Shown here one piece after another: positions 1,253-47,110 of a stretch of 54,872 bases of DNA (position 1 is the first letter of the stretch; the number at the start of each line of letters is the position of its first letter). Position numbers and translations under genes: made by a program. Below the pieces are notes generated by a model. It saw nothing but the letters and a program-made list of their open reading frames with translations. It was not told the DNA's origin and made no database searches. Origin of the DNA: an uncultured beta proteobacterium (GTDB taxonomy: Bacteria > Pseudomonadota > Gammaproteobacteria > Burkholderiales > SG8-41); assembly GCA_903885665.1 (NCBI GenBank), contig CAISJL010000158.1, positions 1 to 54,872 on the forward strand, given 5' to 3'.

Positions 1253-3478
1253 TCACCATTGTATCTGGTGCATGCTGCTAAATTGATCAGTCCATAATCG
1301 TAGCCCGGGCCGATCACGATTTTCTATGCCGATGACTTGCCCTTGCTCGTTGCGCAGTATACGATTAACTGATGGGTAGTTTTTGAGATAGAGCTGATCA
1401 TTGGTCATGATGAAATATTGATTACGTCTGATTAAATGATCCCGATCAATGTCTTGAAATTTATTGCGATAACCAAGACCAAGTGCTTGGGCTTGTGCCT
1501 TAACCACCGGATACAAATTTAGGTAGGCATTGGTGATGTTAATAGCAATAAAGCCATTTGGTTTGAGATGTGATTTGTAGATCTGAAATGCTTCCTGCGT
1601 CAGTAAATGAATCGGTACTGATCCGCCTGTGAAGGCATCAAGCACAATGACATCGTACAGCGTAGTAGCGGGTAGGCGCTCCATTTGTAGTCGGGCGTCG
1701 CCTAAGATGATGCTGAGATCATGGGTTTTAATTGTCGATAAATTATCGAACCACTTTTGGGCAACACGTACTACTTCGGGATTGATTTCATAGAAATCAA
1801 AGCGATCTTGTGACCTTGCATAATTAGCTAGCGTGCCAGCGCCTAAGCCTATTAGCCCTACATGTAAGGGCTTGTCATTTTGATGTAGATAAGAAAATGT
1901 TTCACCTACACCACTTTGCTGACTGTAGTAAGTGGCTGGTTGGTGGCGTAATTCTGGGCTTTGGAATTGTAGTCCGTGCGTGATTTGCCCGCTAAAAAAA
2001 ACTCGGTAGTTAAGCTCTGGATGCTTTGGATATTGACGCTCAGTAACGGCTACTGTGCCATAAAAATTACGTGATTGTTCCAAGGGAATACTGACATAAT
2101 CAGTGGGTGAGCCGGGGCGCCATTCTAGAGGGTCCTCAATAAAGAGGTATAAGCTGAGTGTTGCGATACAGGCGATACCGATATAGCGTTGTTTAGTTGG
2201 ATTAGCTATCCATATCGGTGCTGTATGCGACATTGGCGACGTTGACGAATATTCAATCAGCGATGATGTGCCAGCCCATTCGCGACGTAAGATGCTGAAA
2301 GCTAATAAGATCGATAGTATGAGCGCAATGGGCCACTCATGGTATTCATTGAAAAAATGCGTGGCAAATAAGGTCACAAATAAACCACCGCATGCACCAC
2401 CCACTGACATCCACAGATAAAATTCAGTTAAATAGCGTGTATTGCGAGGGCGTTGCCGATACAGTTCGCCATGACACATCATGCACACCAAAAACAATAC
2501 TGCATAGTGCATCAGTCGCATTTCTGAGACACCATATTCCCATTCAAAATTAAACCAAGATGGGATTTCTTTGCGGCCAACCGTAACAAACAAGCCAACC
2601 ATGGCGGCCACTGCAGTGAGTGCGGGTCGATACCAGCGTGGGTGGTCAAAGGTCAGTACAAAAGTCAGTAAATACAGACCTAGAGTTGCAATCCATAGAC
2701 TGGGTTCTGGTGCAATGTTATGGCTGACTTGGTCAGTAGCTGCGATAAAGATGAGTGACGCCAGCGCTGGAAGGGAGAGCCAACGTAAGCGCATCCAACC
2801 CGTAATCGTGCTGCTGTCTTGGTCGTGTTGGTGTGGTGCTGACGTAGTCGAATTAGTATTTGATTGTTGCTTCCAACCTAAAGCAATGGGTAGGCATAGT
2901 ATGACAAATAAAATAAATCCCCAAGTCCACCAACGACTCATTTGTTGTAATTCAAACCAAGGCTCCAGTAAATAGGGGAAAGATAACAGGGCAGCAAATG
3001 ATCCTATATTCGATAGGGCATAAAGGCGATAGACGGAGCCTGTGGCCGTGGTGTGTGAGAACCAGTGTTGAACCAATGGTCCGGTAGTGGCTAGGCAAAA
3101 ATAGGGTAACCCTATGCTCGTGGCCAGAATGAGCAAGACCTGTAATGCTGGTATTTCATCACCCATTGGTTTCCAGCTTGCGCTAGGCAGAATAGAGCCC
3201 GCCAATAAGCCGCCACATAATAACAATATGACGTGAATACCCGCCTGTAACTGACGTGAGGGTAGGCGTGTCAGAGCGTGTGCATAGATATAACCTGCAC
3301 ACAATATGCATTGAAAAAATAGCATCGCAGTTGTCCATACTGCAGGGCTACCGCCAAACCATGGCAATATAAACTTGCTAATCATCGGTTGCACTTGAAA
3401 CAGTAGAAATGCACTGCAGAAAATAGTTAATGCAAACAGCAGGATAATAGGTTTCTTGGTAGTGCTTTGATTAGGCAT
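1253..3478 (-). CDS. Fused multi-spanning membrane protein / spermidine-synthase-like domain (copy 1)
   Basis: 741 residues. The first two thirds are strongly hydrophobic, with about ten to twelve membrane segments starting at residue 10. A soluble loop region follows, then a C-terminal Rossmann methyltransferase-like domain of the spermidine synthase type. Its signatures are GLIGLGAGTLA, an acidic residue in YEINPEV, LGDARLQ, and DAFTGGSVPIHLLT. This is the known 'fused MFS/spermidine synthase' class, whose substrate is not established. It closes a leftward run behind cphA', cphA, the acyltransferase and the Tgl-like gene, 159 bases after the last. A homologue of the same architecture closes the opposite arm at 13852-15921. 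In this copy the Asp found in the other's SGDSVP loop is Gly. The enzymatic role (aminopropyl transfer versus binding only) is unproven. Confidence 0.82.
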   Translation of the reverse strand: MPNQSTTKKPIILLFALTIFCSAFLLFQVQPMISKFILPWFGGSPAVWTTAMLFFQCILCAGYIYAHALTRLPSRQLQAGIHVILLLCGGLLAGSILPSASWKPMGDEIPALQVLLILATSIGLPYFCLATTGPLVQHWFSHTTATGSVYRLYALSNIGSFAALLSFPYLLEPWFELQQMSRWWTWGFILFVILCLPIALGWKQQSNTNSTTSAPHQHDQDSSTITGWMRLRWLSLPALASLIFIAATDQVSHNIAPEPSLWIATLGLYLLTFVLTFDHPRWYRPALTAVAAMVGLFVTVGRKEIPSWFNFEWEYGVSEMRLMHYAVLFLVCMMCHGELYRQRPRNTRYLTEFYLWMSVGGACGGLFVTLFATHFFNEYHEWPIALILSILLAFSILRREWAGTSSLIEYSSTSPMSHTAPIWIANPTKQRYIGIACIATLSLYLFIEDPLEWRPGSPTDYVSIPLEQSRNFYGTVAVTERQYPKHPELNYRVFFSGQITHGLQFQSPELRHQPATYYSQQSGVGETFSYLHQNDKPLHVGLIGLGAGTLANYARSQDRFDFYEINPEVVRVAQKWFDNLSTIKTHDLSIILGDARLQMERLPATTLYDVIVLDAFTGGSVPIHLLTQEAFQIYKSHLKPNGFIAINITNAYLNLYPVVKAQAQALGLGYRNKFQDIDRDHLIRRNQYFIMTNDQLYLKNYPSVNRILRNEQGQVIGIENRDRPGLRLWTDQFSSMHQIQW

Positions 3479-3637
3479 GTTAGTTTTTTTTAGTTTTTCG
3501 TAGGATTATGTGAAGTATGTATTGCGCAATATGTTGCTAAATATGTAGCAAAATACAGCGATTGAATTTGTATTGTATGGATTACATGAACAATCTGTCG
3601 CAGAGTGATGATTGAAGGCGGCACTTAAGATGCGTGA

Positions 3638-4792
3638 TTAGTAATACCCTGGCATTATAATGTCGCACGTGCTAGGCCGAACCCAGCGTAAGAACTCGCG
3701 AGAAGTATCCATACAGCCACCATTTTCGTAAACGCCTTTGGGGTCGCGTAGTCGATACATGCGCCGCATAATTTTTGCAACTTCTGCTGGTTGAGTCATG
3801 GTTTGGTCAAGCAGCTCTGAGACTCTACTCTCATCCATTTGGAGCTCGCCATTAGTATCGCGAAAAGTACTGTTTCGCCAGTGGTATACATCAACACATT
3901 TTGATTCAATCGTAAAGGGTTTGTTGCGTCTCCAGAAATTTGGAAATAGTCCGCCACCTAAATACAGAACCCAGGAGCCCTCAAAGCCTGCCACATCAGA
4001 TGACGAATCATCTGGGTTGCGAAACCATATGCGGTCACCTGGAATGTAATACCGTATGGGTAGAGGGTCTTCCATGGTGCCTGCTTCCTTTAAGAAAACA
4101 TCATGAAATTTTCCGGATATGACTGCACGAGTTTCCCACTGTTGTTGCATGGCCGCCAGTAGCGCAGGATTAGAGATTTGAGCCTCTTGCGCTAACGCTA
4201 ATAATAGGACGTACTCGGTTGCTCGGTAACAAGAAAACGAGTAGACCGTGCCATCTGGACCAGGTTGAGTTGCTTTAATCAGGGCTTCAATCAAAGGTGA
4301 GCCTGGCAGTACGGTAAAGCTGGTGTTTTCGTGGTAAGTCCAGCAGTCGTTTGGACGCTCAGCTTCGCTAGCGTTGAAATTTAGGACGGTTTTGCTAGCA
4401 GCATCTACAATAAATGTACGTATGCGTATCGCAGAGATTATCTCATCAACGCTGGGGTAGATCCATGGTGTCGGGTTTGCCAACATGGCAAGCCAGATCT
4501 CTCGATACAAATCGCTTGGGTTGCTGTGTGGTTGCAATCCTAGGCGCTCACTCAGATCAATCGTGTTTAGCTCAGGCATTACTGATTGAATATAGTCTTG
4601 TTTAAGGGTCCATTGCATATAGCCCTCAAATATGGTGCCGTTGGAATCCTTCACATCATTTTCTAAGCGTAGTGTTTGCAGTGTGCTTTTGATGGTTTGT
4701 CGCGCCACATCGGATTCATGCTGATTGGTAACCCGTATCTGGATACCATGTATGTTCTGTTGTGAGGCAGTGGGTGATCCGTATTCGTTCAT
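3638..4792 (-). CDS. Protein resembling Bacillus Tgl transglutaminase (putative)
   Basis: 384 residues, no signal peptide or membrane segment, predicted cytoplasmic. The middle and end follow the layout of the B. subtilis spore transglutaminase Tgl: an aromatic stretch CWTYHENTSFTVLPGSP (150-166), a cysteine after a tyrosine in VYSFSCYRATEYVLLLALA (Cys188), then IPGDRIWFRNP (250-260) and EGSWVLYLGGGLF (271-283). Tgl has the comparable blocks Y-G-T-E-C, V-P-G-D-L-V-Y-F-K-N-P and Y-L-G-N-F-F, in the same order. It is about 140 residues longer than Tgl, mostly at the N-terminus. Tgl's catalytic Glu and His are not clearly matched, so activity is uncertain. If active, it would form amide links between glutamine and amines. 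The gene lies 55 bases after the acyltransferase, in the same run as the cyanophycin synthetases. The match is from memory of motifs, not an alignment. Confidence 0.5.
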   Translation of the reverse strand: MNEYGSPTASQQNIHGIQIRVTNQHESDVARQTIKSTLQTLRLENDVKDSNGTIFEGYMQWTLKQDYIQSVMPELNTIDLSERLGLQPHSNPSDLYREIWLAMLANPTPWIYPSVDEIISAIRIRTFIVDAASKTVLNFNASEAERPNDCWTYHENTSFTVLPGSPLIEALIKATQPGPDGTVYSFSCYRATEYVLLLALAQEAQISNPALLAAMQQQWETRAVISGKFHDVFLKEAGTMEDPLPIRYYIPGDRIWFRNPDDSSSDVAGFEGSWVLYLGGGLFPNFWRRNKPFTIESKCVDVYHWRNSTFRDTNGELQMDESRVSELLDQTMTQPAEVAKIMRRMYRLRDPKGVYENGGCMDTSREFLRWVRPSTCDIIMPGYY

Positions 4793-4847
4793 AATTAGGA
4801 TTTAGAAAAAAATTTTTTGCAGATTTATTATTGAAGCTTATTTTAGT

Positions 4848-5966
4848 TTAATGCAGGTGTATTGTGGTGCGCCATGCTGCTCTAGGAGAATCTGCCCAAT
4901 TATAGAAGATGTTAGCAGTCCAGAGACTAACGGTCCATCCCGCGACTAGATAGGTAGTCGCTGTTGTAGCAGACGTAGTACTTGGCGAGAATCCCAGGCC
5001 AGTAAAAATTGCATTGATGAGTATTAATATTGGAAAGTGAATTAGGAATAGTGCATAGGATTGCAAACTTAATGTTATAAAAATTATTTTTATTTTAGGA
5101 TGCACGTCTAGCAGACTGGAGCGTTCTCCCCAAAGCGCTAACATTAGCGAAATGCTTATTGCTAGTGCAATTCGTAATCGAAATTGAATGATTAATGCAA
5201 TGATTCCAAATAGTAGCGTGATTGAAAACAATATGCGGGCGTGTAGCGTGGAATTAGTCGGTGTTTCTGCATTACTTTTTAGGCGTGCCCACCATGCCAA
5301 CACGCCTAAACCGTAAGCACCAATAAAATAGATTGCCCAATCATCCAGCTCAGGGTGACGATTAAACACCATCAGTGAAGCAATGCACAACACGGCAATA
5401 GTAATTTGTGCCCGATATGTATTATGAGTGTTTAGCCAAACAATCAAAGTCAGCAGAATAAATAATTGTAGATCTATAGCGACATACCATATCCCAGCAG
5501 ATATAGAATCAATATTAAAAAGGCTTTGCATCATGGCTAGATGTGATAGCCATTGTTGCCAGCTCGGTAACGCAGCGCGCAGATCTGAGGATAGCCAGGG
5601 GTTAACTAATGCGGTGCATAGTACTGCTGCAGCAATTGCTATGAAATAGGGGATAGCTAATCGAGTATATCGTTTGTATATCAAGTACAGGGATGAGCGC
5701 CAAGTTATTGATCTGCCCGCTAGAGTTCGTGCAGCTAAATAGCCAGCGACCACCAGAAAAATTTGCACTGCCATACGTCCATAGTAGAAGAGTAAGTCGC
5801 TGATAACCGGCCAGTGAGTGTGTATTGCATCTGAAATTGGACCATAGACGCAGAAGTGATGAAGGACAATCAGTTGTGCGGCTAAAGCTTTAAGAATATC
5901 AATGATTGGATAACGGTCGACAAGTGCGTTTGAATTAATCGAATTGCGCATTCTAGAGGTAATCAA
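4848..5966 (-). CDS. Acyltransferase family 3 (OafA/YrhL-type) membrane protein
   Basis: 372 residues with about ten hydrophobic segments. The family's N-terminal hallmark is present: D-I-L-K-A-L-A-A followed by LIVLHHF with the conserved histidine, then GRMAVQIFLVVAGYLAAR. These inner-membrane enzymes move acetyl, succinyl or other acyl groups onto sugars, lipids or peptidoglycan on the far side of the membrane. The acceptor cannot be told from sequence. The long form begins at a TTG (5966), 22 bases after cphA; an ATG at residue 6 (5951) is an alternative. Its place between cphA and the Tgl-like gene suggests cotranscription. A role in decorating the polymer or an envelope component is inference. 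Confidence 0.82.
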   Translation of the reverse strand: MITSRMRNSINSNALVDRYPIIDILKALAAQLIVLHHFCVYGPISDAIHTHWPVISDLLFYYGRMAVQIFLVVAGYLAARTLAGRSITWRSSLYLIYKRYTRLAIPYFIAIAAAVLCTALVNPWLSSDLRAALPSWQQWLSHLAMMQSLFNIDSISAGIWYVAIDLQLFILLTLIVWLNTHNTYRAQITIAVLCIASLMVFNRHPELDDWAIYFIGAYGLGVLAWWARLKSNAETPTNSTLHARILFSITLLFGIIALIIQFRLRIALAISISLMLALWGERSSLLDVHPKIKIIFITLSLQSYALFLIHFPILILINAIFTGLGFSPSTTSATTATTYLVAGWTVSLWTANIFYNWADSPRAAWRTTIHLH

Positions 5967-5988
5967 CTGTTATCCAATAGTTGGCAAA

Positions 5989-8583
5989 TTAGCTGGTTAG
6001 TTTTGCGCTCAGATGTCGACTGTCGGTGACTTGTTGTTGAATATAATCGAGTGCTGCTTCAACTTGGTCAACCAAAATTAGACATAGACTGCCCGGTGAT
6101 AAGCGAGCTAAGGCGGTATCGATTGCTTTAAACTCGCCCCGAATCTCTTGTACAAAGCGTGCACGTTTAGCGCCGTTGAGGCCTTGTCTGAGTAATTGAA
6201 TAACTTCACCGTCATTGCGTCCCCGTTGGCACGCGTCTTCATAGAGCACAATTTCGTCAAAAGCTTTACCAAGAATCTTGGTTTGATTGCGAATATCTTC
6301 ATCGCGTCGATCGCCGGCGCCGCTAATGACTACAACACGCTTTGTGGCAGGCATATTTTCTACAGCTTTTACCAAGGCTTGTATCGCGTCTGGGTTGTGA
6401 CCATAGTCAGCAATTAATGTGGAACCGCGGTAGTCAAATACGTTGAATCGTCCAGGTACACCTTCGATGTCATTAATAAAGGTGGATAGGCCTACAGCGA
6501 TTGTTTCCCAGGGAATATTGATAGCCCATGCCGCAGCGACTGCAGCAAGTACATTTTCAGTTTGAAATTCAATTTTACCTTGACCAGTTAACGGTACATC
6601 TGCGAGCGAGAAGCGGAACACTTTTTTACCCTCTTGAGCAACGAGGTGACCATTTTCGGTATAGACCACACGTTTGCCTTGCGCGCGATGCGTTGCTAGC
6701 ACAGACAGGTGCGAGTCAATTGCAAAAAAGGTCACTTTTCCGGGGCAATGTTTTGCCATCATGGCTACGGCGGGATCGGCTGCATTCAATACAGCCATAC
6801 CATCCGTAGCAACGTTTAAGACGACTACACGCTTCAGTACAGATAAGTCCTCTAAGGTGGTAATGTAATTTAAACCTAAGTGGTCACCAGCGCCCAGGTT
6901 AGTCACAATTGCGACTTGGCATCGGTCGAATGCTAAGCCTTCACGCAGCATGCCGCCGCGGGCTGTTTCAAATACCGCTGCATCGACATCAGGGTGCATG
7001 AGTACGTTACGAGCACTTCGCGGCCCGCTGCAGTCGCCATCGTCAATTTGTCTGCCATTTACATAAACGCCATCGGTGTTGGTAATACCAACACGCATTT
7101 TGTGCGCCTTGAGTAAGTGTGCTGTTAAGCGCACTGTAGTTGTTTTACCATTAGTGCCGGTTACTGCAATGATGGGGATTCGACCATTTTCACCCTTAGG
7201 ATACATTTGGTCGATAATCGCTTGACCTACGCCGCGCCCCTTACCGAAGGAGGGGCTAATATGCATGCGTAGACCAGGTGCAGCATTCACTTCTACGATA
7301 CCGCCATTTTGTTCTTCTAGGGGGCTTAATACTGACTCACACACGACATCAACTCCGCAGATATGCACACCAACCATTTGTGCAGCAGCAACTACTCGCG
7401 CCGCCACATCGGGATGGACATCGTCTGTGACGTCGGTTGCGGTACCGCCAGTAGATAGATTTGCATTGTTACGTAATACAACACGTCGACCCTTTTCAGG
7501 TATGGTGTCCGGGTCGAGATCTTGCAGTTTTAAGCAGGCGATGACGATGTTATCGAACTTTATTTTACTTAAAGACGTGGCGTGACCATCGCCACGGCGT
7601 GGATCAGCATTCACTTTATCTAGGAGTTGTCGAACAGTAGAAACGCCATCTCCCACCACTAAGGGGGGGTCGCGTCTGGCCGCTGCAACTAATTGATCTC
7701 CAACAACTAATAATCGGTAGTCATTGCCTGGTAGGTATTTTTCAACCAATACTTCGCCAAAGCGCGCAGAAGCTGCATAAGCCTGATCGAATACATGGCG
7801 CTCAGTAATATTAACGGTAACGCCTTTACCCTGATTGCCATCGAGCGGTTTAACGACGACCGGTAAGCCAATGCTCTGAGCTATGCGCCATGCATCCTCT
7901 AGGTCTGTAGCGGGTCGCCCCATGGGGACAGGCACGCCTACCGCTTGTAATAATGATTTTGTTAAATTTTTATCTTGTGCGATCGTTTCAGAAATAGCGC
8001 TGGTGCTATCTGTTTCTGCGGCTTGAATCCGTCGTTGCTTGGATCCCCAGCCAAACTGTACCATACTACCTTCTGTTAAACGCTGAAATGGTATGCCACG
8101 AGCAATCGCTGCATCAACAATTGCACTGGTTGAGGGGCCCATGCGTATATCTTCATCTAGTTCATGTAACTCAGATAATGCTTTTTTAAGATCAAATGAG
8201 CTATTGTTTTGCGCGGCAAGGAACATTTTTTCAGCCCAACTAATCGCTAACCGCCCAACTGCCTCTTCGGTATATTGCACTACAACTTGATAGACACCCG
8301 GGTCTTCAGTAGCTGTAGTGCGACTAAAGGTCACTGGGCAACCGGCATGCGCTTGCAAGTCAAGAGTGATTTTCTCTAGCGTGTGCGCCATGCTGATGGG
8401 TTGGCCTGGATGCGGGCCAACTAATGGGCCAAGTGCTGGAAAAATTTGGCGTAAATTCTTTTCGAAGATACTGTTGGCTGGGAGAGCGCATTCAGTAGGT
8501 GTGCAGGAGACAATGGCCTCAATGCTGGTATGGCGGCTCCACAAATTGGGCCCTCTCAATGCTCTAATTCTAGATACTTCCAT
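5989..8583 (-). CDS. cphA: Cyanophycin synthetase
   Basis: 864 residues, about the normal length. It makes multi-L-arginyl-poly-L-aspartate by adding Asp to the backbone and Arg to the side chain at two ATP sites. The N-terminal domain opens with RALRGPNLWS. The ATP-grasp domain (about 200-460) shows KPLDGNQGKGV and EVNAAPGLRMHI. The Mur-ligase-like domain has an intact P-loop, VTGTNGKTTTVRL (474-486), and keeps its C-terminal part with VPGRFNVFDYRG and DYGHNPDAI. Both active sites therefore look complete. It follows cphA' by 30 bases and precedes the acyltransferase by 22. No cyanophycinase or isoaspartyl dipeptidase gene lies in the window, so degradation must be encoded elsewhere. Confidence 0.95.
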   Translation of the reverse strand: MEVSRIRALRGPNLWSRHTSIEAIVSCTPTECALPANSIFEKNLRQIFPALGPLVGPHPGQPISMAHTLEKITLDLQAHAGCPVTFSRTTATEDPGVYQVVVQYTEEAVGRLAISWAEKMFLAAQNNSSFDLKKALSELHELDEDIRMGPSTSAIVDAAIARGIPFQRLTEGSMVQFGWGSKQRRIQAAETDSTSAISETIAQDKNLTKSLLQAVGVPVPMGRPATDLEDAWRIAQSIGLPVVVKPLDGNQGKGVTVNITERHVFDQAYAASARFGEVLVEKYLPGNDYRLLVVGDQLVAAARRDPPLVVGDGVSTVRQLLDKVNADPRRGDGHATSLSKIKFDNIVIACLKLQDLDPDTIPEKGRRVVLRNNANLSTGGTATDVTDDVHPDVAARVVAAAQMVGVHICGVDVVCESVLSPLEEQNGGIVEVNAAPGLRMHISPSFGKGRGVGQAIIDQMYPKGENGRIPIIAVTGTNGKTTTVRLTAHLLKAHKMRVGITNTDGVYVNGRQIDDGDCSGPRSARNVLMHPDVDAAVFETARGGMLREGLAFDRCQVAIVTNLGAGDHLGLNYITTLEDLSVLKRVVVLNVATDGMAVLNAADPAVAMMAKHCPGKVTFFAIDSHLSVLATHRAQGKRVVYTENGHLVAQEGKKVFRFSLADVPLTGQGKIEFQTENVLAAVAAAWAINIPWETIAVGLSTFINDIEGVPGRFNVFDYRGSTLIADYGHNPDAIQALVKAVENMPATKRVVVISGAGDRRDEDIRNQTKILGKAFDEIVLYEDACQRGRNDGEVIQLLRQGLNGAKRARFVQEIRGEFKAIDTALARLSPGSLCLILVDQVEAALDYIQQQVTDSRHLSAKLTS

Positions 8584-8613
8584 GAAAAGGTTTTCCTAAT
8601 GTTGAATTAATTA

Positions 8614-10791
8614 TTAATGTGCAGCAGGACTTTGATCAAAGCTTTTCGCACCTGCGCGAATTAAATCAAAGGGTATATTCAAAGCCCATGAAGCAGCTGC
8701 CGCCACTAGTAGCTCGTCGGATTTGACGATTTGTTTTTTAAATAAGTTATCGATCATTGGTAGGGAACGGTTTAGCACATCAACCTCTTGTGATCTTTTA
8801 GATAAAATCAAGTGACCGTCACGCCAGAATACCACTCGTCCACCATCTTCGCGATGTTTGGCGACATGATGATTTTTTTCTGAATCGGCATAAAACATGA
8901 CCTCGCCGTCACAGTATTGCGCTAACGCAGCAACAGCCTCATCTTCGGCATTTAATATGGCTACACCGTTGGGTAGTATTACGTCAATTTGGGTACGCAC
9001 TATACTGGGCATTTGTGCGTTGTTATAGATATATAAGTCATCTAAACCTTCAGCCGTCGGCATAATGGTGACGATGCCAACTTGACAGCGATCGTAGGGT
9101 AGTCCCTCGGTCAAAATGTGTCTGGCCGTAGTTTCAAACACTGCAGCATCAACCGCGCGGTTGATTAGTAAGCGTTGTGCAACATCTATGGTCATACCTT
9201 CATGGTTTTGTAAGCAGCGCTGAACAACAAACAAACCTTTTGCAGATGATATTCCTGTGCGTAGACCTTGTAAGTGTAGTAGCCAACCTATGAGGTGACT
9301 AATGACAGTGGTATTTTGATGGCCGATCAAGCCAACGACCGGTATTCGTGCATTTTGTTTTTGAGGGAACAAATGTTCAACAATTGCTTCGCCAACTGGA
9401 CGTGCAGGGCCATCTGCAGGCTTGAGGTGCATAATTAAACCTGGCCCAGCGTTGACTTCAACAATAGCTGCGCCTTGTGCTTTCATGGGCTTGGAAATAT
9501 CTTGCGCAACTAAATCAACTCCCGCAATATCAAGACCAACAATGCGTGCAGCCAAGGCTGCGAGTTCTGCAACGTCTTGGTGTACTAAATCTGTAACGTC
9601 CGTTGCCATATTACTGGTGCGCATGACTACAACTTTACGACCTTTATCAGGAACGCTCTCGCCGGTTAATCCTTGTCGCTTTAACTCCATGACTGCAGTA
9701 TGGTGCTCATGCAGTCTGATGGTGTCTAGCGGAAAGTCTTCCTCTTCGCCGCGTCTTGGGTCGGAGTTGATTTGGATTTCGATCAGATCTGTGACGGTAT
9801 TAACGCCATCGCCAACAATACAGGCGGCCTCTCCTTTATTGGCGGCCACAACCTTACCGCCGACAACTAATAGTCGATATTCGTCGCCAAAAATATGACG
9901 CTCGACTAAAACTTCACTGCCCTCAGCTTCAGCTAAATGATAGGCAGCCTCAATTTCAGTTTGTGAATACAACTCTAGGGTCACCCCGCGGGCATGGTTG
10001 CCATCTACGGGCTTAATACAAACCGGCAATCCAATTTCTTGTGCTGCTGACCATGCTTCTTCTGAAGACTCAACGTTGCGACCCTCAGGGATAGGCACGC
10101 CACAATTGGCGAGTAAGCGCTTGGTGAGTACTTTATCTTTAGAGATACCTTCAGCGATGGCGCTAGTTTGATCGGTTTCTGCAGTCCAAATGCGACGCTG
10201 ATTTGAGCCATAGCCTAGTTGAACTAAATTGCCATCGTTCAAACGAATTGCAGGAATGCTGCGCTCAGCTGCAGCACCAACAATGCAAGCGGTGCTTGGC
10301 CCGATACACAGACGATCGACCATTTGAGTCAGTTCATCGATTACTTTGGAAATTGAATAGTCGTCGCCTTTGATGGCGGCCATGACTACATCTCGAGCAG
10401 CCTGTAGGGCTGCACGACTGACCGTTTCATGTCGAGTGCGGATCACGACTTTATAGATGCCGCGTGGACCCGCTTCTCGGGCTTTACCAAAACCGGTTTG
10501 CATGCCAGCAAGATTTTGTAGCTCCAAGGCTACGTGCTCCATAATATGGCCAACCCAAGTGCCTTCTTCGAGGCGTTTTATAAAGCCACCTGATTGACCT
10601 ATGCTACATCGGTGCTGGGTTAATCCCGGTAGTAGCGCTTGGAGCCGTTGATTAAACCCCGGTAGGGTGTTGGATGGAGAGTTTTCTAGGTCGCCAATGT
10701 CAATCCAAGCTTCAATAACTGGACGATAGGTCCAAATATTCGGACCACGCAAATGCGTCATGCGCAGGAATTGAATGTCTTTAGCGCTCAT
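8614..10791 (-). CDS. Cyanophycin synthetase paralogue with degenerate Mur-ligase domain (CphA'/CphA2-like)
   Basis: 725 residues, some 140 shorter than its neighbour. The N-terminal domain (THLRGPNIWTY) and ATP-grasp domain (IKPVDGNHARGV, EVNAGPGLIMHL) are well kept. At the Mur-ligase P-loop the expected GTNGKTTT is GHQNTTVI (about 487-496), without the nucleotide-binding lysine. The protein ends before the C-terminal Mur domain that carries the DYGHNPD motif in cphA. The second ATP site is therefore probably dead. Cyanobacterial CphA2, which polymerises ready-made aspartyl-arginine dipeptide, lost the same region, and Ralstonia has a comparable CphA'. A dipeptide-recycling or regulatory role here is inference. 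It is the first gene of the leftward run, 145 bases from the divergent ABC exporter. Confidence 0.88.
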   Translation of the reverse strand: MSAKDIQFLRMTHLRGPNIWTYRPVIEAWIDIGDLENSPSNTLPGFNQRLQALLPGLTQHRCSIGQSGGFIKRLEEGTWVGHIMEHVALELQNLAGMQTGFGKAREAGPRGIYKVVIRTRHETVSRAALQAARDVVMAAIKGDDYSISKVIDELTQMVDRLCIGPSTACIVGAAAERSIPAIRLNDGNLVQLGYGSNQRRIWTAETDQTSAIAEGISKDKVLTKRLLANCGVPIPEGRNVESSEEAWSAAQEIGLPVCIKPVDGNHARGVTLELYSQTEIEAAYHLAEAEGSEVLVERHIFGDEYRLLVVGGKVVAANKGEAACIVGDGVNTVTDLIEIQINSDPRRGEEEDFPLDTIRLHEHHTAVMELKRQGLTGESVPDKGRKVVVMRTSNMATDVTDLVHQDVAELAALAARIVGLDIAGVDLVAQDISKPMKAQGAAIVEVNAGPGLIMHLKPADGPARPVGEAIVEHLFPQKQNARIPVVGLIGHQNTTVISHLIGWLLHLQGLRTGISSAKGLFVVQRCLQNHEGMTIDVAQRLLINRAVDAAVFETTARHILTEGLPYDRCQVGIVTIMPTAEGLDDLYIYNNAQMPSIVRTQIDVILPNGVAILNAEDEAVAALAQYCDGEVMFYADSEKNHHVAKHREDGGRVVFWRDGHLILSKRSQEVDVLNRSLPMIDNLFKKQIVKSDELLVAAAASWALNIPFDLIRAGAKSFDQSPAAH

Positions 10792-10936
10792 TTCTGTGCT
10801 TTAACTCAGTGGCCATAGGGGTGACGTGTTACAATCAATTGTTGCGTTCGGCACTGGCAGAATCTTTCTGATCATTAAGGTGCAAGGGCTTTATACTGTC
10901 CGCCAACATATCTTCACTCTTGTTGCTTAAACCTAT
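10792..10936. promoter_or_regulatory. Divergent promoter region between cphA' and the ABC exporter
   Basis: The 145-base gap between two divergently transcribed arms of the cyanophycin cluster must hold promoters for both. A TATACT at 10892-10897 is a possible -10 element for the rightward arm, but no well-spaced TTGACA-like partner is visible. CAATCAATTG at 10832-10841 is a near-palindrome. No known operator is recognised. Confidence 0.4.
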
Positions 10937-13279
10937 ATGACCCTCAATGCCCCCCCCAATAATTTGTTTGGGTTGCCTATCGAATGGCGCGAACGCTGTG
11001 TTTTTAATTTTCATCCAACTGATAACGTATCAGCTAGTCTAGAAGTTGACTTGGATGACAATTTAAATTTCACTAAATCATTACTGATTTTATCGGACCA
11101 GCGGATCACGTTAGGTGTCGACACTTCAGAAAACTGGGATTTTTGGCCAACTTCTCCTAAAAACACCTTGATTTTGACGGATCACGCTGGGGTAGGTTCG
11201 CTTTCTCTGTATGTGGATGGTGAGCGTGTTGCAGTTTGGCGCTTTACTTTAGGTCGACTGGCTGCGGCATTGCGTTTTAAAAATCAGTTTGAACGTCAGC
11301 AAAACAAAGTCATTGCAGGTTCGGATGCAGATGAATCGATATCCTCATATTCGTCAGATTTTGTTTGCCAGGATTGTCAGAGTCCAATTAGTGTTGATAT
11401 TGATGAGTGCCCAGTGTGCTCTGAAAAAGAATCTATTCCGACTTCAACATTAACGTTGTTCAAATTGTGGCGTTTTGCACGGCCATACCACGGGCAGTTA
11501 TTGCTGGGCTTTATTTTAACTTTGGCGGCTACTGCAGCAACTTTAGTGCCGCCATATTTAACAATGCCGTTGATGGATGATGTGTTAATTCCTTATCAGA
11601 ATGGGGTACACATTGATCCTGTCATAGTCTCTTGGTATCTGTTGGGGCTGTTTGGCGCGGCTTTTTTAGCTTGGGGTTTGGGCTGGATCAAAACCTATAT
11701 TTTGTCATTAGTCTCTGAGCGTATTGGTGCAGATTTACGTACTGCCACCTATGAACATTTGATGCAATTATCTCTGGAGTATTTTGGGGGGCGACGTACT
11801 GGAGATTTGATCTCTAGAATAGGTAACGAGACAGACCGAATCAATGTCTTTTTATCGCTGCATTTGCTCGATTTTGCTACAGATGTACTAATGATTTTGA
11901 TGACGGCTGTTATCTTAATCTCAATTAATCCTGCGCTGGCAATCGTTACGCTACTACCACTGCCTTTTATTGCTTGGCTAATTCATATTGTGCGAGAGCG
12001 TCTACGTACTGGTTTTGAAAAAATTGATCGTGTTTGGTCTGAGGTAACAAATATTTTAGCGGATACTATTCCAGGTATTCGTGTAGTGAAAGCGTTTGCT
12101 CAAGAGCATCGCGAAGCGCAACGTTTCAATGATGCAAATAAGCATAATTTATCTGTGAATGATCGCTTGAATCGGATCTGGTCATTGTTTGGCCCTACTG
12201 TGACCTTAATGACTGAAATCGGGTTATTGGTGGTTTGGGCTTTTGGAATTTGGTTGGTGTCTAAAGACAAAATTACCGTAGGTGTATTGACTGCATTTTT
12301 AGCTTATATCGGGCGTTTTTATACGCGCCTTGACTCCATGAGCCGCATTGTCTCAAGTACGCAAAAGGCTGCTGCTGGCGCTAAGCGCATTTTTGAAATA
12401 CTCGATCATGTCTCCAGTGTTCCTGAGCCAAGCAATCCGCTGCCGATCCATACGGTGCAAGGCCGTCTGACATTAAGCAATGCTGATTTCAGGTACGGTA
12501 ATCGGTCGGTCATTCGACAATTAAATCTGGATATTCAACCTGGAGAGATGATTGGTTTGGTCGGCCATAGCGGCTCTGGCAAAAGCACTTTGGTGAATTT
12601 AATTTGTCGTTTTTATGATGTTTCTGAAGGTAGCATTGCGCTAGATGGTGTTGATATTCGACAATTTAGTGTGAGTGATTATCGAAGAAATATTGGTTTG
12701 GTTTTGCAGGAGCCTTTTTTGTTTTTTGGCACGGTCTCGGATAATATTGCCTATGGTAAACCACATGCGACAAGGGATGAGATCGTAGCTGCTGCACGTG
12801 CGGCTCATGCGCACGAATTTATTTTGCGCATGCCGCAAGGCTATGACTCTTTGGTTGGTGAGCGTGGTCAGGGCTTGTCTGGTGGCGAGCGTCAGCGCAT
12901 CTCGATTGCGAGAGCATTATTGATTAATCCGCATATATTAATACTCGATGAGGCTACCTCTTCGGTCGATACTGAAACAGAAAAAGAGATTCAAAATGCT
13001 TTGGATAATTTGGTTCGCGGCCGCACCACGATTGCCATTGCACACCGCTTATCCACTTTGCGCAAAGCAGACCGCTTAGTGGTGATGGATAAGGGGCAGA
13101 TTGTTGAGGTGGGACCGCATGACGCGTTGATTGCGGCGCAGGGTGCTTATTGGCGTTTGTATGAGGCGCAACAGCGTCAGGCGCAAATCGAGGGCGCCGT
13201 GCTGCGAGAGTCGCCTTCCATGCCTGTAGATTCGAAAGGGGAGTCTACAATGGCGCAATCTCCTGCGAAGGATAGATGA
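10937..13279 (+). CDS. Cyanophycin-cluster ABC transporter (fused permease/ATPase with N-terminal zinc-ribbon extension)
   Basis: 780 residues. Residues 1-170 form an unusual cytoplasmic extension ending in a four-cysteine knuckle, C144-x2-C147 and C158-x2-C161. Then come a six-helix exporter domain (about 180-480) and an ATPase domain with Walker A GHSGSGKST (543-551), signature LSGGERQR (647-654), Walker B ILILDEATSS and an H-loop in IAIAHRLS. This is the half-transporter exporter layout of the MsbA/LipA type and would work as a dimer. NCBI models recognise an ABC transporter and DUF1854 pair associated with cyanophycin metabolism, and this gene overlaps DUF1854 by four bases (ATGA), implying translational coupling. 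The cargo is unknown; polymer precursors or products are guesses. No strong ribosome-binding site precedes the ATG. Confidence 0.9.
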   Translation: MTLNAPPNNLFGLPIEWRERCVFNFHPTDNVSASLEVDLDDNLNFTKSLLILSDQRITLGVDTSENWDFWPTSPKNTLILTDHAGVGSLSLYVDGERVAVWRFTLGRLAAALRFKNQFERQQNKVIAGSDADESISSYSSDFVCQDCQSPISVDIDECPVCSEKESIPTSTLTLFKLWRFARPYHGQLLLGFILTLAATAATLVPPYLTMPLMDDVLIPYQNGVHIDPVIVSWYLLGLFGAAFLAWGLGWIKTYILSLVSERIGADLRTATYEHLMQLSLEYFGGRRTGDLISRIGNETDRINVFLSLHLLDFATDVLMILMTAVILISINPALAIVTLLPLPFIAWLIHIVRERLRTGFEKIDRVWSEVTNILADTIPGIRVVKAFAQEHREAQRFNDANKHNLSVNDRLNRIWSLFGPTVTLMTEIGLLVVWAFGIWLVSKDKITVGVLTAFLAYIGRFYTRLDSMSRIVSSTQKAAAGAKRIFEILDHVSSVPEPSNPLPIHTVQGRLTLSNADFRYGNRSVIRQLNLDIQPGEMIGLVGHSGSGKSTLVNLICRFYDVSEGSIALDGVDIRQFSVSDYRRNIGLVLQEPFLFFGTVSDNIAYGKPHATRDEIVAAARAAHAHEFILRMPQGYDSLVGERGQGLSGGERQRISIARALLINPHILILDEATSSVDTETEKEIQNALDNLVRGRTTIAIAHRLSTLRKADRLVVMDKGQIVEVGPHDALIAAQGAYWRLYEAQQRQAQIEGAVLRESPSMPVDSKGESTMAQSPAKDR

Positions 13280-13749
13280 TGAGCATACAAGAGTTCGTTT
13301 TCGATTGTGACGCACTGGGTCACTGGTTCTATGTTTCTAGTCAAGGCGTGCGCCATGAGCAAGTTAGTGTAGTGAGGGCGTTCCCAGTAGTCGCCCCTAA
13401 TGAGGGCGTGGCTTTGCTCGATGCTGAAGGGCATGAGTTGTTATGGATAGCTTACTTAGAACAGCTATCGGTCGAATTGCGTAATAAAATCGAACAGGCT
13501 TTGAGGCAACGTGAGTTCATGCCGTGTATTTTGAGACTGCTCAGTGTAAGCAGCGTCGTTACACCCTGCGTTTGGCAAATAGAAACCGACCGTGGCAATA
13601 CGACATTGCTGCTCAATGGCGAAGAGGATATTCGTCGGCTGTCCGGTAAGGCATTGTTGGTCACCGATGGCTATGGCGTGCAGTTTTTGATTCGCGAATT
13701 AGCGCAGATGGATAAGCAATCACGAAAGTTACTCGATTGGTTTTTGTGA
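13276..13749 (+). CDS. DUF1854 family protein, cyanophycin-associated
   Basis: 157 residues, soluble, with no signal peptide. It matches the small DUF1854 proteins that accompany the cyanophycin ABC exporter in Burkholderiales. Recognisable parts are VVRAFPVVAPNEGVALLD and ELLWIAYLEQL near the middle, then GEEDIRRL and the ending RELAQMDKQSRKLLDWFL. Function is unknown. The overlap of its ATG with the exporter stop, and the shared cysteine-ribbon neighbour, suggest it binds or regulates the transporter. A second ATG directly follows the first, so the start could be one codon later. Confidence 0.82.
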   Translation: MMSIQEFVFDCDALGHWFYVSSQGVRHEQVSVVRAFPVVAPNEGVALLDAEGHELLWIAYLEQLSVELRNKIEQALRQREFMPCILRLLSVSSVVTPCVWQIETDRGNTTLLLNGEEDIRRLSGKALLVTDGYGVQFLIRELAQMDKQSRKLLDWFL

Positions 13750-13851
13750 TTAATGGTCAGTTACAGATTGGTTTGGAGTTGGTTTCATTGGAATTGAATC
13801 CTTTGAATTTATGTAAATATTTGATTTTAAATAACTTTTTAATCGGTTTGT

Positions 13852-15921
13852 ATGCAAAACACTACTGATCTGAAAGCTGTATTTTTATATGGCCTGACTA
13901 TTTTTCTGAGTGCTTTTTTGCTGTTTCAAGTGCAGCCGATCATGGGTAAGTTGATCTTGCCATGGTTTGGTGGATCTGCGTCAGTGTGGACGACGTGCAT
14001 GTTATTTTTTCAGGCATTGTTATTACTGGGCTACCTGTATACGCATTGGGTAGTGAATCATTTATCACCTTGGCGTCAGAGCGTTCTGCACATGTTCTTG
14101 TTATTTTGTTGTGTGCTGTTATTGCCAATTACACCCAGTGAGCTGTGGAAGCCGACCGGAGCTGAGAATCCCACATTGCGTATTTTAGGCCTACTGAGCG
14201 CTTCAATTGGTTTGCCGTACTTATTACTCTCGACAACTGGTCCGCTGGTTCAAGCCTGGTTCGCACGGGAGCAAAGTGGCGCAGTGACCTATCGGCTATT
14301 TGCGTTATCAAATTTTGGTTCGATGTTAGCGCTGTTGGCATATCCTTTTGTAATCGAACCCTTGTTGCCGACTCGTTGGCAGTCCTTGGCATGGTCGGGT
14401 TTGTTTATTCTGTTTGTATTGGCATGTGGCAGTTTGGCGTGGCGGGGGCGACATGCGCAGCAGCATGTATTACCTGCTAATGGCGATAATCCTGCAATTA
14501 GAGACGGCGCACTCTCAACGATTTCGTGGAGTCAATTGCTACTTTGGATAGCACTCGCGGCGTGTCCCTCGATTTTGATGGTGGCTGACACGAGTTACCT
14601 CACGCAAAATATTGCACCAATACCATTGTTGTGGATTGCCCCTCTAGCATTATATTTACTAACGTTTATTTTATGTTTTGAGCGCCAGGGTTGGTATCAG
14701 CGGCGCATATTTTTACCGCTAATGGTGCTAAGTTTAGGTGCGCTCACGTATTTACCGACATTAGGATTGTCTGAGGTTCCGCTATTTTGGGCTATGAGTA
14801 TAAATTTACTTTCATTCTTTGTTGTATGTATGGTTTGTCATGGCGAACTGGCGTCTCAAAAACCACCCACACAGCATTTGACATTGTTCTTTTTGATGTT
14901 ATCTATTGGTGGTTTTTTAGGAGGATTTTTTGTGGGCGTGATTGCCCCTTATGCTTTTAATGGGCATTACGAATTATCAGTGGCAGTAGTATTGAGTGGG
15001 CTTGTGGTCAGCGCTTCGCTATGGCGATCCTGGCCTATTTTGTCAGCGCAAATGTTACGGTTATCATTTGTAATGAGTATTACGGTGTTTCTTGCTGTGC
15101 TTGCCGCGGTAAGCGTAAATGATCAAATGGAGGAGGCTGATGGTGTAGAGATGGCTGGGCGGAATTTCTATGGCAGTTTGAGAGTTTTTGCATTTCCAGA
15201 GGACGGTTTTCGTAGCATGCTACATGGTCAGATTGTGCATGGTAAACAGTTTATGTCGCCAGAGCGTGAGATGCAGCCGACCACTTATTACAATGCAGAT
15301 GCAGGTGCGGGTATGGCAATCACTACGCAAATGACCCGCGGACCTGTTCGTGTAGGTGTTATTGGACTGGGTGTAGGAACTTTGGCGGCTTATGGTCGAT
15401 TAGGTGATACTTATCGATTCTATGAAATTGATCCGCTAGTGATGAATATGGCGCAAAAAAACTTCAATTTTCTATCGCTGACTAAAGCTAAAACAAAATT
15501 GGTGCTAGGTGATGCAAGGCTACAGCTTGAGGCCGAACCTGCTCAACAATTCGATGTGCTAGTAGTAGATGCGTTCTCTGGTGATTCTGTTCCTGTGCAT
15601 TTGCTGACCCGTGAGGCATTTGCACAGTATGAGCGACATCTCAAACCTAATGGTGTTTTGGCGGTTCACATGACTAATCGATTTCTAGAGCTGCAACCTG
15701 TTATTCAAACTGCAGCAGATCAGTTTGGATTTACTGCCAGACTCGTTGAAAGTGTTGGTGATCAGGATAGATTAGTGTATGCCTCACGTTGGGCTGTTTT
15801 GGCTAAAGATGCAAAATGGTTTGAGCAAGGGCCTCTAAAGGAGGCCAAAGCCTTGGAGGGGCGAGCAGGATTTGTGCCGTGGACTGATGATTACAGTAGT
15901 TTATTTGCGGTAGTAAAGTGA
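13852..15921 (+). CDS. Fused multi-spanning membrane protein / spermidine-synthase-like domain (copy 2)
   Basis: 689 residues with the same layout as the gene at 1253-3478. The N-termini match closely: both read FLLFQVQPM or FLLFQVQPIMG, then LPWFGGS and VWTT-MLFFQ. About ten or more membrane segments are followed by a soluble domain with GVIGLGVGTLAAYG, FYEIDPLV, LGDARLQLE and DAFSGDSVPVHLLT. Both copies end in a Trp-Thr-Asp stretch. This copy is about 50 residues shorter and keeps the Asp in the SGDSVP loop. It follows DUF1854 by 102 bases on the same strand, so the two copies bracket the cyanophycin cluster. Family function is not established; aminopropyl or methyl transfer to a membrane or polymer substrate is possible. 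Confidence 0.83.
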   Translation: MQNTTDLKAVFLYGLTIFLSAFLLFQVQPIMGKLILPWFGGSASVWTTCMLFFQALLLLGYLYTHWVVNHLSPWRQSVLHMFLLFCCVLLLPITPSELWKPTGAENPTLRILGLLSASIGLPYLLLSTTGPLVQAWFAREQSGAVTYRLFALSNFGSMLALLAYPFVIEPLLPTRWQSLAWSGLFILFVLACGSLAWRGRHAQQHVLPANGDNPAIRDGALSTISWSQLLLWIALAACPSILMVADTSYLTQNIAPIPLLWIAPLALYLLTFILCFERQGWYQRRIFLPLMVLSLGALTYLPTLGLSEVPLFWAMSINLLSFFVVCMVCHGELASQKPPTQHLTLFFLMLSIGGFLGGFFVGVIAPYAFNGHYELSVAVVLSGLVVSASLWRSWPILSAQMLRLSFVMSITVFLAVLAAVSVNDQMEEADGVEMAGRNFYGSLRVFAFPEDGFRSMLHGQIVHGKQFMSPEREMQPTTYYNADAGAGMAITTQMTRGPVRVGVIGLGVGTLAAYGRLGDTYRFYEIDPLVMNMAQKNFNFLSLTKAKTKLVLGDARLQLEAEPAQQFDVLVVDAFSGDSVPVHLLTREAFAQYERHLKPNGVLAVHMTNRFLELQPVIQTAADQFGFTARLVESVGDQDRLVYASRWAVLAKDAKWFEQGPLKEAKALEGRAGFVPWTDDYSSLFAVVK

Positions 15922-40970: not shown

Positions 40971-42053
40971 TTAAGCTTTTTTCCGATTCTTCTCCAGCCA
41001 TCCATCGACCAATGCTACCGTTTGATCGACTACATCTAAGTGCATGTTCTTTTGTGCGGCAACAGTTTTGACTAAGCGGTCTACACGCTCGATATTGGGT
41101 GCGCCTGCAGCTAGTGCACGTGCAGCTGAAGAGGGGCTGCCGAGCGAGAGTGCAGCGTTTGCGTATTTTTCAAACGGCACCATGTCTTTTTCGCTGGCAC
41201 CAATAAGGGTGCAGAGCTTTACTACCCAATTGTAGACAGCGCGCGACGCCTCTAAGTCGCTATGCACAGCATCTTTAATTGGACGCATCTCATCTTTTTG
41301 TACGCATCGATAGTTACCTGCAATCAGCATGGCCCACTTGGCTAGTGGTACAAAGACTGAATCGTGCACTTTGAGTTTGACGGGAAGCTCAATCAGATGG
41401 CCATCACCCGGATCAAAGCGGATTGCATCAATATCAGCCTCGAGTTGGCGCAGTATCGCGGTGTGTGCGTCTGAGTCAAAGCGCGCCGCTTTGAAGTTGG
41501 TTGGTAAGCGCACTTGCAACACATTGACTTTCTCTTCTGGTGGGCGAAATGCTTGGGGGTCGGGGCTGCATAAGGTGAGGGTCTTGGGATCGAAGCTATC
41601 CCACACCGAAGCATCGGTAAAGCAATCACGGCAACCATCTGCATTGAGGCCAGGAATCCGCTTAAGGTAGGGCAGCGGTGGCATGTTCATGATGGACATG
41701 CAGGGTACTTTAGAGCGTGCTACTTGATCGAGTAACTCGCGCACGCCTGGTGAGCGATATTGTGGCTCTTGCATCGCTAATGCGATTAGGTCGTAGTCAG
41801 CTGGGTTCGCTGAGTCTGGGCCGCCTGCAGAGAGTTCTCCTGGTAGATTTTTGGAGTGAATCTCGACCAAGCCTTCGCGACCTTTGATCGGCATACGCAC
41901 AATCGCCCCTTCAGCGTTGAACAGGTCAGCCTCAGCTGGCAAGCAAATCATCTTGACCGTGTGACCAGCGAGCAGCAGTTTGGTGGCGAGTAATGAGCCG
42001 TAGGAGGCGCCGAGGATCAAGATTTTATATTTTTTCATAATCATTTCTTTCAA
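40971..42053 (-). CDS. Ketopantoate-reductase-like (ApbA/PanE family) NADP-binding protein
   Basis: 360 residues, cytoplasmic. The N-terminal dinucleotide fold (KILILGASYGSLLATKLLLAG) and the MPIKGREG and DLIALAMQEPQY stretches resemble ketopantoate reductase, which reduces 2-oxopantoate. The C-terminal part (about 220-350) is helical, with LPVKLKVHDSVFVPLAKWAML. The family includes many oxidoreductases of unknown substrate, and no pan genes are nearby. Several in-frame ATGs follow the first within eight codons, so the start is uncertain (42053 or about 42038). Confidence 0.65.
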   Translation of the reverse strand: MKEMIMKKYKILILGASYGSLLATKLLLAGHTVKMICLPAEADLFNAEGAIVRMPIKGREGLVEIHSKNLPGELSAGGPDSANPADYDLIALAMQEPQYRSPGVRELLDQVARSKVPCMSIMNMPPLPYLKRIPGLNADGCRDCFTDASVWDSFDPKTLTLCSPDPQAFRPPEEKVNVLQVRLPTNFKAARFDSDAHTAILRQLEADIDAIRFDPGDGHLIELPVKLKVHDSVFVPLAKWAMLIAGNYRCVQKDEMRPIKDAVHSDLEASRAVYNWVVKLCTLIGASEKDMVPFEKYANAALSLGSPSSAARALAAGAPNIERVDRLVKTVAAQKNMHLDVVDQTVALVDGWLEKNRKKA

Positions 42054-42391
42054 CGGTAGGGAGTTAAATCGATGGTTTGCTAAATGAAACAGTGTGGAAC
42101 GGTGCTCAATAATGATAAGCGGCTATATTTAATGGGGGCATTATATTGGCTGTTGTGCCCCATTTGCCCAATGATACACAAATGCTTGAATCAATGCGCG
42201 GTGTGATGCTCTTTCTTGTGGCTGGGGTAGGTGCTGAATTACGAATATAACCTTCTGATTTTATTGACTAAATCAGCTGACTGAACGAAGCTGGCGAATG
42301 TGTTGTTATGGGCGAAACAGTATCGTTGTGGGTCGCATTCTCATATTACAATGCGGCGCTCGTATTCTCACCTAATTCTCAGGAGTCGATC
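42054..42391. other. 338-base divergent intergenic region with a hairpin
   Basis: Lies between the ketopantoate-reductase-like gene (minus) and the second glutathione transferase (plus). AATGGGGGCA (42131-42140) and TGCCCCATT (42156-42164) can form an imperfect hairpin with one bulge. AGGAG at 42381-42385 precedes the ATG at 42392 and decides that start. No gene is seen. Confidence 0.45.
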
Positions 42392-42982: not shown

Positions 42983-43072
42983 GGAGTTTGATGTACGGTC
43001 GATGCAGTGCGTAGTCATGCCTCAGAAGCTTAAATTACAAGTGTAGATATTACACATGCATAGCACATAAAA

Positions 43073-43098
43073 AAACGACCAGGAAATCCTGGTCGTTT
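43073..43098. terminator. Intrinsic terminator between hppA and the GST gene
   Basis: AAACGACCAGG (43073-43083) and CCTGGTCGTTT (43088-43098) pair perfectly with a 4-base loop. On the minus strand seven T follow, so it best terminates hppA; in the plus direction the T-run is weaker. Confidence 0.88.
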
Positions 43099-43133
43099 GC
43101 TTTGGTGCAGTGCCTACAACGACTAGGCGTTGT

Positions 43134-45203: not shown

Positions 45204-45364
45204 TATTACTCCTAAACTGTTGTTTTAATTAAAAATTTAACCAACGCGATTGTCACAAGGCTTTGCGCAAGCGTCGTTTTCTCAGAGCCATACTGAAACC
45301 AGAACTATCGGTAAAACAATGATTAACTCTGAGTAGCTCGGTATGCAATACTGAAACGACCGCT

Positions 45365-45370
45365 ATTATA
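45365..45370 (-). promoter_or_regulatory. Possible -10 box upstream of hppA
   Basis: On the minus strand the hexamer TATAAT lies about 160 bases before the hppA start. No convincing TTGACA partner is found at the normal spacing, so it is only a candidate. Confidence 0.3.
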
Positions 45371-47081: not shown

Positions 47082-47110
47082 AGGAATATCTATAGTAAGG
47101 GTATCGACGG

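Follow-up and report, generated by a model that had tools for sequence, protein, structure and literature searches.

Cyanophycin, a bacterial storage polymer of arginine and aspartate, has β-aspartyl-arginine isopeptide bonds in its side chains, which are akin to the γ-glutamyl bonds of the Bacillus transglutaminase Tgl. The betaproteobacterial locus for this polymer combines two synthetase genes, cphA and cphA', with genes for an ABC transporter, recognized by a profile named 'cyanophycin metabolism-associated ABC transporter' (NF052233), and for a DUF1854 protein (NF052234). We analyzed such a locus on a contig of 54,872 nucleotides from an uncultured beta proteobacterium of the order Burkholderiales; the whole contig is hereafter called the window. 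The core of this locus has the same genes in the same order as its ordinary betaproteobacterial counterpart, from which it differs in that the cphA operon also includes genes for an AT3-family membrane acyltransferase (4848..5966, minus strand) and a Tgl-like protein of the PF20085 family (3638..4792, minus strand). We propose, with a probability that we put at roughly one half, that these two proteins are accessory enzymes in a locus whose two synthetases share the work, that the Tgl-like protein likely acts on β-aspartyl-arginine bonds, and that two membrane/spermidine-synthase-like fusion genes flanking the cluster stand outside the system.

The evidence comes in the first place from the distribution of the two genes across 300 genomes of the order. 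The cyanophycin-associated ABC gene was detected in 102 of them and two more (G122 and G287) were recognized by CphA, giving 104 cyanophycin-positive genomes; the ABC profile was applied to all 300 genomes and CphA to some, so that this base rate may be low. PF20085 genes were found in 30 genomes, 29 of which are cyanophycin-positive (27 with the ABC gene, together with G122 and G287), against 104/300 overall (Fisher p = 5e-14, with genomes treated as independent). Counted by genus, which corrects in part for kinship, 19 of the 20 genera with PF20085 are cyanophycin-positive as against 54 of 134 (p = 5e-8). A draw across the phylum recovered PF20085 in 4 of 349 genomes, namely the window's own genome and three genomes of the order already counted. 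The AT3 subfamily behaves in the same manner, being present in 34 of the 300 genomes, of which 33 are cyanophycin-positive (Fisher p = 3e-16). It was detected with a profile built from 30 proteins, including ones paired with Tgl away from cyanophycin genes, by scoring the best six candidates per genome at a cut-off of E up to 1e-35, and the weakest match accepted was 3.8e-48. Both associations are strong, and by all appearances neither the Tgl-like protein nor the acyltransferase is a bystander. In the genomes examined neither gene is scattered among relatives without cphA, and the first-pass annotation's assignment of both to the cyanophycin system is upheld by these counts together with the repeated adjacency and mutual pairing described below.

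The gene neighborhoods point in the same direction. Relatives of the Tgl-like protein were collected by a profile scan of species genomes and with the patterns FSCYRATE and SS[DN][VA]xG[YF]EGS, from which 391 stretches were obtained and the best 80 retained. An initial set of 29 loci, of which 22 were of the strong kind, six weak and one partial, had no neighbor in common and contained two that adjoin cyanophycin genes, a pattern suggestive of scatter that the wider search then revised. Among the best 80, 22 adjoin the cyanophycin core, 23 adjoin a gene of the AT3 subfamily and 10 adjoin both. These last 10 loci, from Comamonadaceae and Polaromonas, with Tgl-like proteins 64-67% identical to that of the window, reproduce its CphA'-CphA-AT3-Tgl operon; the divergent ABC gene is present in nine and the DUF1854 gene in eight, the others stopping at a contig end. 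Among the loci examined this order occurs only in the window and in these 10 (L191-L200), so that the conserved order for which the annotation suggested a test is seen for these four genes, and no fusion was found in the stretches covered there. A further 12 loci have the Tgl gene adjoining the core in a different layout: in six, including Thiobacillus, it follows DUF1854, in four of Alcaligenaceae it converges with DUF1854, and in two of Sulfuricellaceae it either follows CphA or converges with it. Another 13 Tgl loci are paired with AT3 with no cyanophycin gene within the stretch. Where the Tgl gene does not adjoin the core, a CphA-type synthetase is encoded elsewhere in 57 of 58 genomes (50/50, of which 46 exceed the curated cut-off, and 7/8, of which five exceed it); by adjacency or genome search 79 of the best 80 relatives are therefore cyanophycin-positive. 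Among the carriers with CphA are a genome recorded as Polaromonas sp. JS666 (L221) and that of Curvibacter delicatus (L233), in which Tgl is paired with AT3. A tree of 81 Tgl proteins places the window sequence with those of the 10 loci that have its operon (support 100/99). On this tree adjacency to cyanophycin genes requires seven changes, which implies that the neighborhood arose or was lost repeatedly.

The acyltransferase is a clear member of the AT3 family (PF01757, 75.9 bits against a threshold of 31, E = 3.8e-21), and a search of solved structures with its sequence returned no match. It shares with OafA, OafB and their relatives the K/R-x10-H and RXXR motifs, which handle acyl-CoA in this family (PMC9833829, available in part). 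It belongs to a subfamily that differs from OafA and OafB in having lysine for arginine in the first motif, in its own signatures HHxxxYGP and SAGxWYVAxDxQL, and in its cyanophycin and tgl neighbors: of 30 proteins, 29 have K-x10-H, as does the window protein, one has R-x10-H and all 30 have RXXR. In a tblastn survey of 102 other cyanophycin loci, comprising those of all 101 other ABC-positive genomes and of G122, a relative of this acyltransferase was found near the core in six, in each of them as the immediate called neighbor at one end of the core or the other. In one genome (G102, locus L292, about 4457-6572) a cyanophycinase homolog and an AT3 gene of the cyanophycin-linked type are divergent, with the two matches 350 bp apart.

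The window's Tgl-like protein matches PF20085 with 94 bits (gathering score 23.7; E = 1.2e-26). Sequence and profile searches against solved structures retrieved the Bacillus-type transglutaminases 7c9j (8e-11) and 4p8i (1.4e-5); a further match, at 0.16 in the single-sequence search, looks like chance. An AlphaFold2 (AF2) model built with 56 sequences is predicted with high confidence (pLDDT 90, pTM 0.91), and its only Foldseek matches in the PDB with E < 0.001 are again 7c9j and 4p8i, both with probability 1.00, with loose superpositions (rmsd 10.5 and 6.5 Å, respectively). Thus the protein shares with the spore-coat Tgl of Bacillus subtilis and Geobacillus the Pfam family, the predicted fold and the catalytic cysteine, since Cys188 aligns with Cys116 of Bacillus Tgl and is invariant across the aligned relatives. 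It differs from the latter in being about 125-140 residues longer, in its acid partners and in traveling with cyanophycin genes rather than with sporulation. According to the available excerpt of PMC6490927, Bacillus Tgl pairs Cys116 with Glu187, or with Glu115 in its stead: the E115A mutant is inactive, and E187A retains about 60% of the activity as Glu115 substitutes. At both places all 81 aligned sequences of the window kind have serine; an invariant glutamate, Glu271, occupies the position of Bacillus Arg185, which precedes that of Glu187 by two residues. This count is in part a matter of construction, as the search patterns cover these motifs; 22 strong proteins that were found by whole-protein search show the same residues independently. 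The alignment of the dyad is also supported by a second PF20085 subfamily, whose seven examined copies (L036 and L055-L060) have YEGSN or YEGSS here; altogether it has eight copies in eight genomes, all eight of which are cyanophycin-positive. With the fold and nucleophile of a transglutaminase but not its acid partner, the window protein is not designated here as a transglutaminase by activity.

Based on these observations we propose that the Tgl-like protein and the acyltransferase probably help to modify or break down cyanophycin, as both are nearly confined to genomes that make the polymer and are often encoded next to its synthetases. The Tgl-like protein would be a cytosolic thiol enzyme with the NlpC/P60-type fold of Tgl, in which Cys188 attacks an amide of the polymer, the β-aspartyl-arginine isopeptide bond being the likeliest target. 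Transfer of the resulting aspartyl acyl-enzyme to water would free arginine or shorten the polymer, and transfer to an amine would remodel or anchor it. The acyltransferase, judging from the transfer of acyl groups from cytosolic acyl-CoA to extracytoplasmic acceptors in its family, may acylate cyanophycin, a fragment thereof, or the site at which it is held or exported. Such activities would bear on a gap in the known biology of the polymer: in the clade table of PMC10206079, no group with CphA1 is larger than the betaproteobacteria (903 genomes), and only 2.8% of these genomes have a recognizable cyanophycinase. Our own search for TIGR02069, which covered 80 of 105 candidate genomes (including G154, later found to be without CphA), gave four genomes above the cut-off and seven at 1e-5; the window's own genome (G000) had no match at 1e-5. 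Given this rarity betaproteobacteria seem to have a greater need for such an enzyme than other groups, and the Tgl-like protein may supply part of the depolymerizing or remodeling activity that is otherwise missing as a recognizable cyanophycinase. It would in that case be a functional counterpart in cyanophycin processing of the serine peptidases CphB, CphE and CphI, from which it differs in family and in nucleophile.

Among the matches listed for transglutaminase together with cyanophycin we found no paper that links the two, in keeping with the annotation's remark that a transglutaminase-like gene is not known from any described cyanophycin system. In Polynucleobacter a transglutaminase-domain protein and a cyanophycin synthetase both appear on the list of proteins that increase in the cold, and are not connected in the part of that study available (PMC7522526); in PMC11915815, likewise available in part, both words occur and the topic is pseudomurein. 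DUF1854 is not named in the cyanophycin literature among the matches listed, and the accessible portion of PMC10687191 has nothing on the Tgl-like and AT3 genes of the locus. Two enzyme families that track the cyanophycin genes across an order are named and testable candidates: action of the Tgl-like protein on β-aspartyl-arginine bonds would add a non-serine enzyme to those that process cyanophycin and would give the Tgl fold a new use, and acylation of the polymer by the AT3 protein would constitute a natural modification of cyanophycin.

Several observations weigh against this proposal, beginning with the two serines at the places of the acid partners. The 104 cyanophycin-positive genomes divide into five with both genes, 24 with Tgl only, 28 with AT3 only and 47 with neither (29 with Tgl and 33 with AT3 in total), and although the two genes are paired in place, their overlap among these genomes is slightly below expectation (p = 0.04). 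Genome G154, listed as 100% complete and the sole cyanophycin-negative one of the 30 with PF20085, has a Tgl gene and no CphA, as does locus L269; G136 (79% complete) has the acyltransferase and no cyanophycin-associated ABC gene, the sole exception among 34. Of the best 80 Tgl loci 45 adjoin neither the cyanophycin core nor AT3, some of their stretches being short. Two of the four genomes with a cyanophycinase above the cut-off, G056 and G102, are Tgl-positive. Lastly, the Tgl gene has other companions: a Transglut_core (PF01841) protein shares its stretch in 11 loci of Comamonadaceae type and adjoins it in eight (L217, L232, L233, L244, L250-L253, L255, L260 and L265), an AhpC/TSA-type protein stands beside it in 11 loci and a histidine phosphatase in nine, each of the three within a single clade. 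Further recurrent clusters in its flanks are GSDH, a methyltransferase and one without a match, the largest cluster reaching up to 10 flanks; the recurrent clusters come from loci of Comamonadaceae and Polaromonas, or of Achromobacter. No Pfam family occurred in more than two of the flanking proteins of Tgl and AT3 (95 of 110 covered) in a survey that took one protein per sequence cluster for Tgl, so that recurrences were collapsed; the neighboring genes were called with a codon-usage script, which missed some. From the distribution, the Tgl-like protein and the acyltransferase are optional additions to the cyanophycin core. Since most cyanophycin-positive genomes are without at least one of them, neither accounts in general for the missing cyanophycinase, a role that we rejected for Tgl given its absence from 75 of the 104 genomes.

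An alternative of rather low likelihood places the modification outside the cell: the polymer or its oligomers would leave through the putative ABC exporter, and the acyltransferase and a secreted Tgl paralog would act on them there, giving a surface or periplasmic arginyl-polyaspartate and not storage granules alone. The MsbA-like ABC protein is indeed part of the locus and occurs in 102 of the 300 genomes, and AT3 proteins pass acyl groups through the membrane onto extracytosolic acceptors (PMC12423673, available in part). The rarity of recognizable cyanophycinases, both in our genomes and in the excerpted survey, is in line with such a fate, and so is the second PF20085 subfamily, in which five of the seven copies examined have a hydrophobic, signal-like N-terminus. 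Against it, none of the 80 relatives of the window kind has a signal-like N-terminus at the threshold used (the window protein scores -0.06), and CphA' bears its endo-cyanophycinase-type motif inside the cell. That a part of cyanophycin metabolism lies outside the cytoplasm, as the ABC exporter, the acyltransferase and the secreted-looking Tgl paralog would suggest, is a possibility and not our best estimate. Equally doubtful is the most complete scheme that can be drawn from the locus, in which a two-protein synthetase would make the polymer, the ABC and DUF1854 proteins would export it or target it to the membrane, a dedicated AT3 protein would acylate it, and Tgl-fold thiol enzymes, as a new class with a rearranged active site, would cut or transamidate it, replacing the missing cyanophycinase in part of the betaproteobacteria; the locus would then be more than a plain store.

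It is somewhat less probable still that the polymer is left untouched and that the Tgl-like protein spot-welds or anchors proteins associated with the granules, as in the spore coat. In favor of this are the fold and cysteine that it shares with Bacillus Tgl, whose role is the cross-linking of pre-assembled coat proteins (PMC6490927, in the part available). However, the replacement of both acids of the dyad in all 81 sequences, one of them at the position where the E115A mutant of Bacillus Tgl is inactive, means that ordinary protein cross-linking is not assured and that the chemistry is uncertain.

Improbable, in our estimate, is the view that the co-distribution stems from common descent and from genome islands passed on together horizontally among betaproteobacteria, and not from a shared function. 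Many of the carriers are related (genus g37 alone contributes eight cyanophycin-positive genomes, six of them Tgl-positive), and the cluster itself is patchy in the window's genus and family, as the cyanophycin-associated ABC gene is absent from all four genomes of the same genus and all four of the same family in the order sample. The cluster also lies in a part of the window with a lower G+C content (0.41-0.49 in 2-kb steps over positions 1-42000) than the contig end (0.46-0.52 over 42000-54872). The GC3 of the genes measured likewise moves from 0.37-0.46 (DUF1854, 0.53) to 0.52-0.56, with the shift near 42-43 kb. This shift, together with the missing ABC gene in genomes of the genus, indicates that the stretch may have been acquired. 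Misbinning of the contig is unlikely, since the H+-pyrophosphatase encoded at 43 kb shares 88-89% identity with the four full-length homologs from the same genus, which places the contig in its own genome. Hitchhiking nevertheless fits poorly with the CphA-type synthetase found in 57 of the 58 genomes in which Tgl is not adjacent, with the several different adjacent arrangements, and with the genus-level signal of 19/20.

The two fusions show a different distribution from that of the two genes in our proposal. Fusion 1 (1253..3478, minus strand) and fusion 2 (13852..15921, plus strand) are 44% identical to each other and match the profile of fused MFS/spermidine synthases (NF037959) with 62.6 and 69 bits, respectively (cut-off 40); with Spermine_synth they score 14 and 22.3 bits, below the cut-off of 22.9. 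Homologs of fusion 2 occur in 55 of the 300 genomes, of which four are cyanophycin-positive, and all eight genomes of the same genus or family have a fusion homolog and lack the cyanophycin-associated ABC gene. The search thus served as a negative control, the fusions being a somewhat commoner family that does not track cyanophycin genes. No fusion was found in the stretches fetched around the best 80 Tgl loci, some of which end near the place: beyond DUF1854 about 1 kb was covered in L191 and L193-L199, and none in L192 and L200. We accordingly rejected the annotation's inclusion of the fusions in the pathway; both are probably bystanders, and with them the suggested aminopropyl modification loses its support. 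That both fusions belong to a wider pathway and add aminopropyl or amine groups is thus very improbable: they flank the cluster on both sides, a full-length homolog adjoins the core in L181 (genome G180), at the opposite end of which AT3 lies, and a partial match of 113 residues is found about 4 kb beyond DUF1854 in L143, but none was seen in the 10 closest operons or the 70 other Tgl loci, and 51 of the 55 carriers, including the eight close relatives, are without the ABC gene.

The core that the accessory genes have joined, namely CphA', CphA, the ABC transporter and DUF1854, is that of an ordinary betaproteobacterial cyanophycin locus: the order of minus-strand CphA and CphA' followed by plus-strand ABC and DUF1854 genes was seen in 85 of the 102 other cyanophycin loci, a count that leaves out the window. 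Its two synthetases are both present back to back, as first annotated, and are not equivalent. CphA (5989..8583, minus strand) scores as a CphA1 (TIGR02068, 959 bits against a cut-off of 850; NF010623, 1210 against 877), has an intact Walker A motif in its M domain (GTNGKTT) and has lost the zinc motif of its N domain. The shorter paralog CphA' (8614..10791, minus strand), which was aligned to 7wac and 7lg5, exceeds the NF010623 cut-off (953 against 877) and falls short of that of TIGR02068 (698 against 850); its N domain keeps the zinc motif C-x19-HxxEH, its Walker A motif is lost (GHQNTTV), and it has no match to the Pfam Mur ligase domains, so that it does not qualify as a complete CphA1. 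Both proteins keep the ATP-grasp domain. The same division runs through the window (5989-10791) and cyanophycin loci L035, L041 and L091-L190: the zinc motif is present in 91/91 CphA' proteins (those over 600 residues, 91 of 94 called) and 0/86 CphA proteins (those over 750 residues, 86 of 90 called), the window included, and the Walker A motif GxxGK[TS] in 83/86 CphA as against 25/91 CphA'. By a stricter test the split is clean in 73 of the 84 loci that have both. By these motifs, the synthetase of betaproteobacteria may consist of two proteins, of which CphA would contribute the arginine-adding M site and CphA' the primer-cutting N domain, with catalysis shared by both. As a mark of CphA2 is the absence of C-x19-HxxEH from the N domain (PMC9262961, available in part), we rejected a reading of CphA', which has this motif, as a cyanobacterial CphA2. 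In Achromobacter genomes G327, G336, G342, G344, G350 and G352 (loci L234, L247, L254, L256, L262 and L264) neither CphA copy is shortened and both lie above the TIGR02068 cut-off; the CphA' of most relatives is short.

Open frames for all eight genes lie in the window at the positions and on the strands given by the first-pass annotation, and its account of the cyanophycin core is confirmed by the profile matches. The leftward run consists of CphA', CphA, AT3, the Tgl-like gene and fusion 1, separated by gaps of 30, 22, 55 and 159 bp. The rightward run, divergent from the synthetases, consists of the predicted cyanophycin-associated ABC exporter (10937..13279, plus strand; NF052233, 1358 bits), DUF1854 (13276..13749, plus strand; PF08909, 1.4e-43; NF052234, 195 bits), which shares 4 bp with the end of the ABC gene, and fusion 2. 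A search of the window found no tRNA genes, and a scan for promoters and terminators gave sites no more frequent than in shuffled sequences. At the contig end adjoining fusion 1, a fragment at 136-507 reads like part of an IS3-type transposase.

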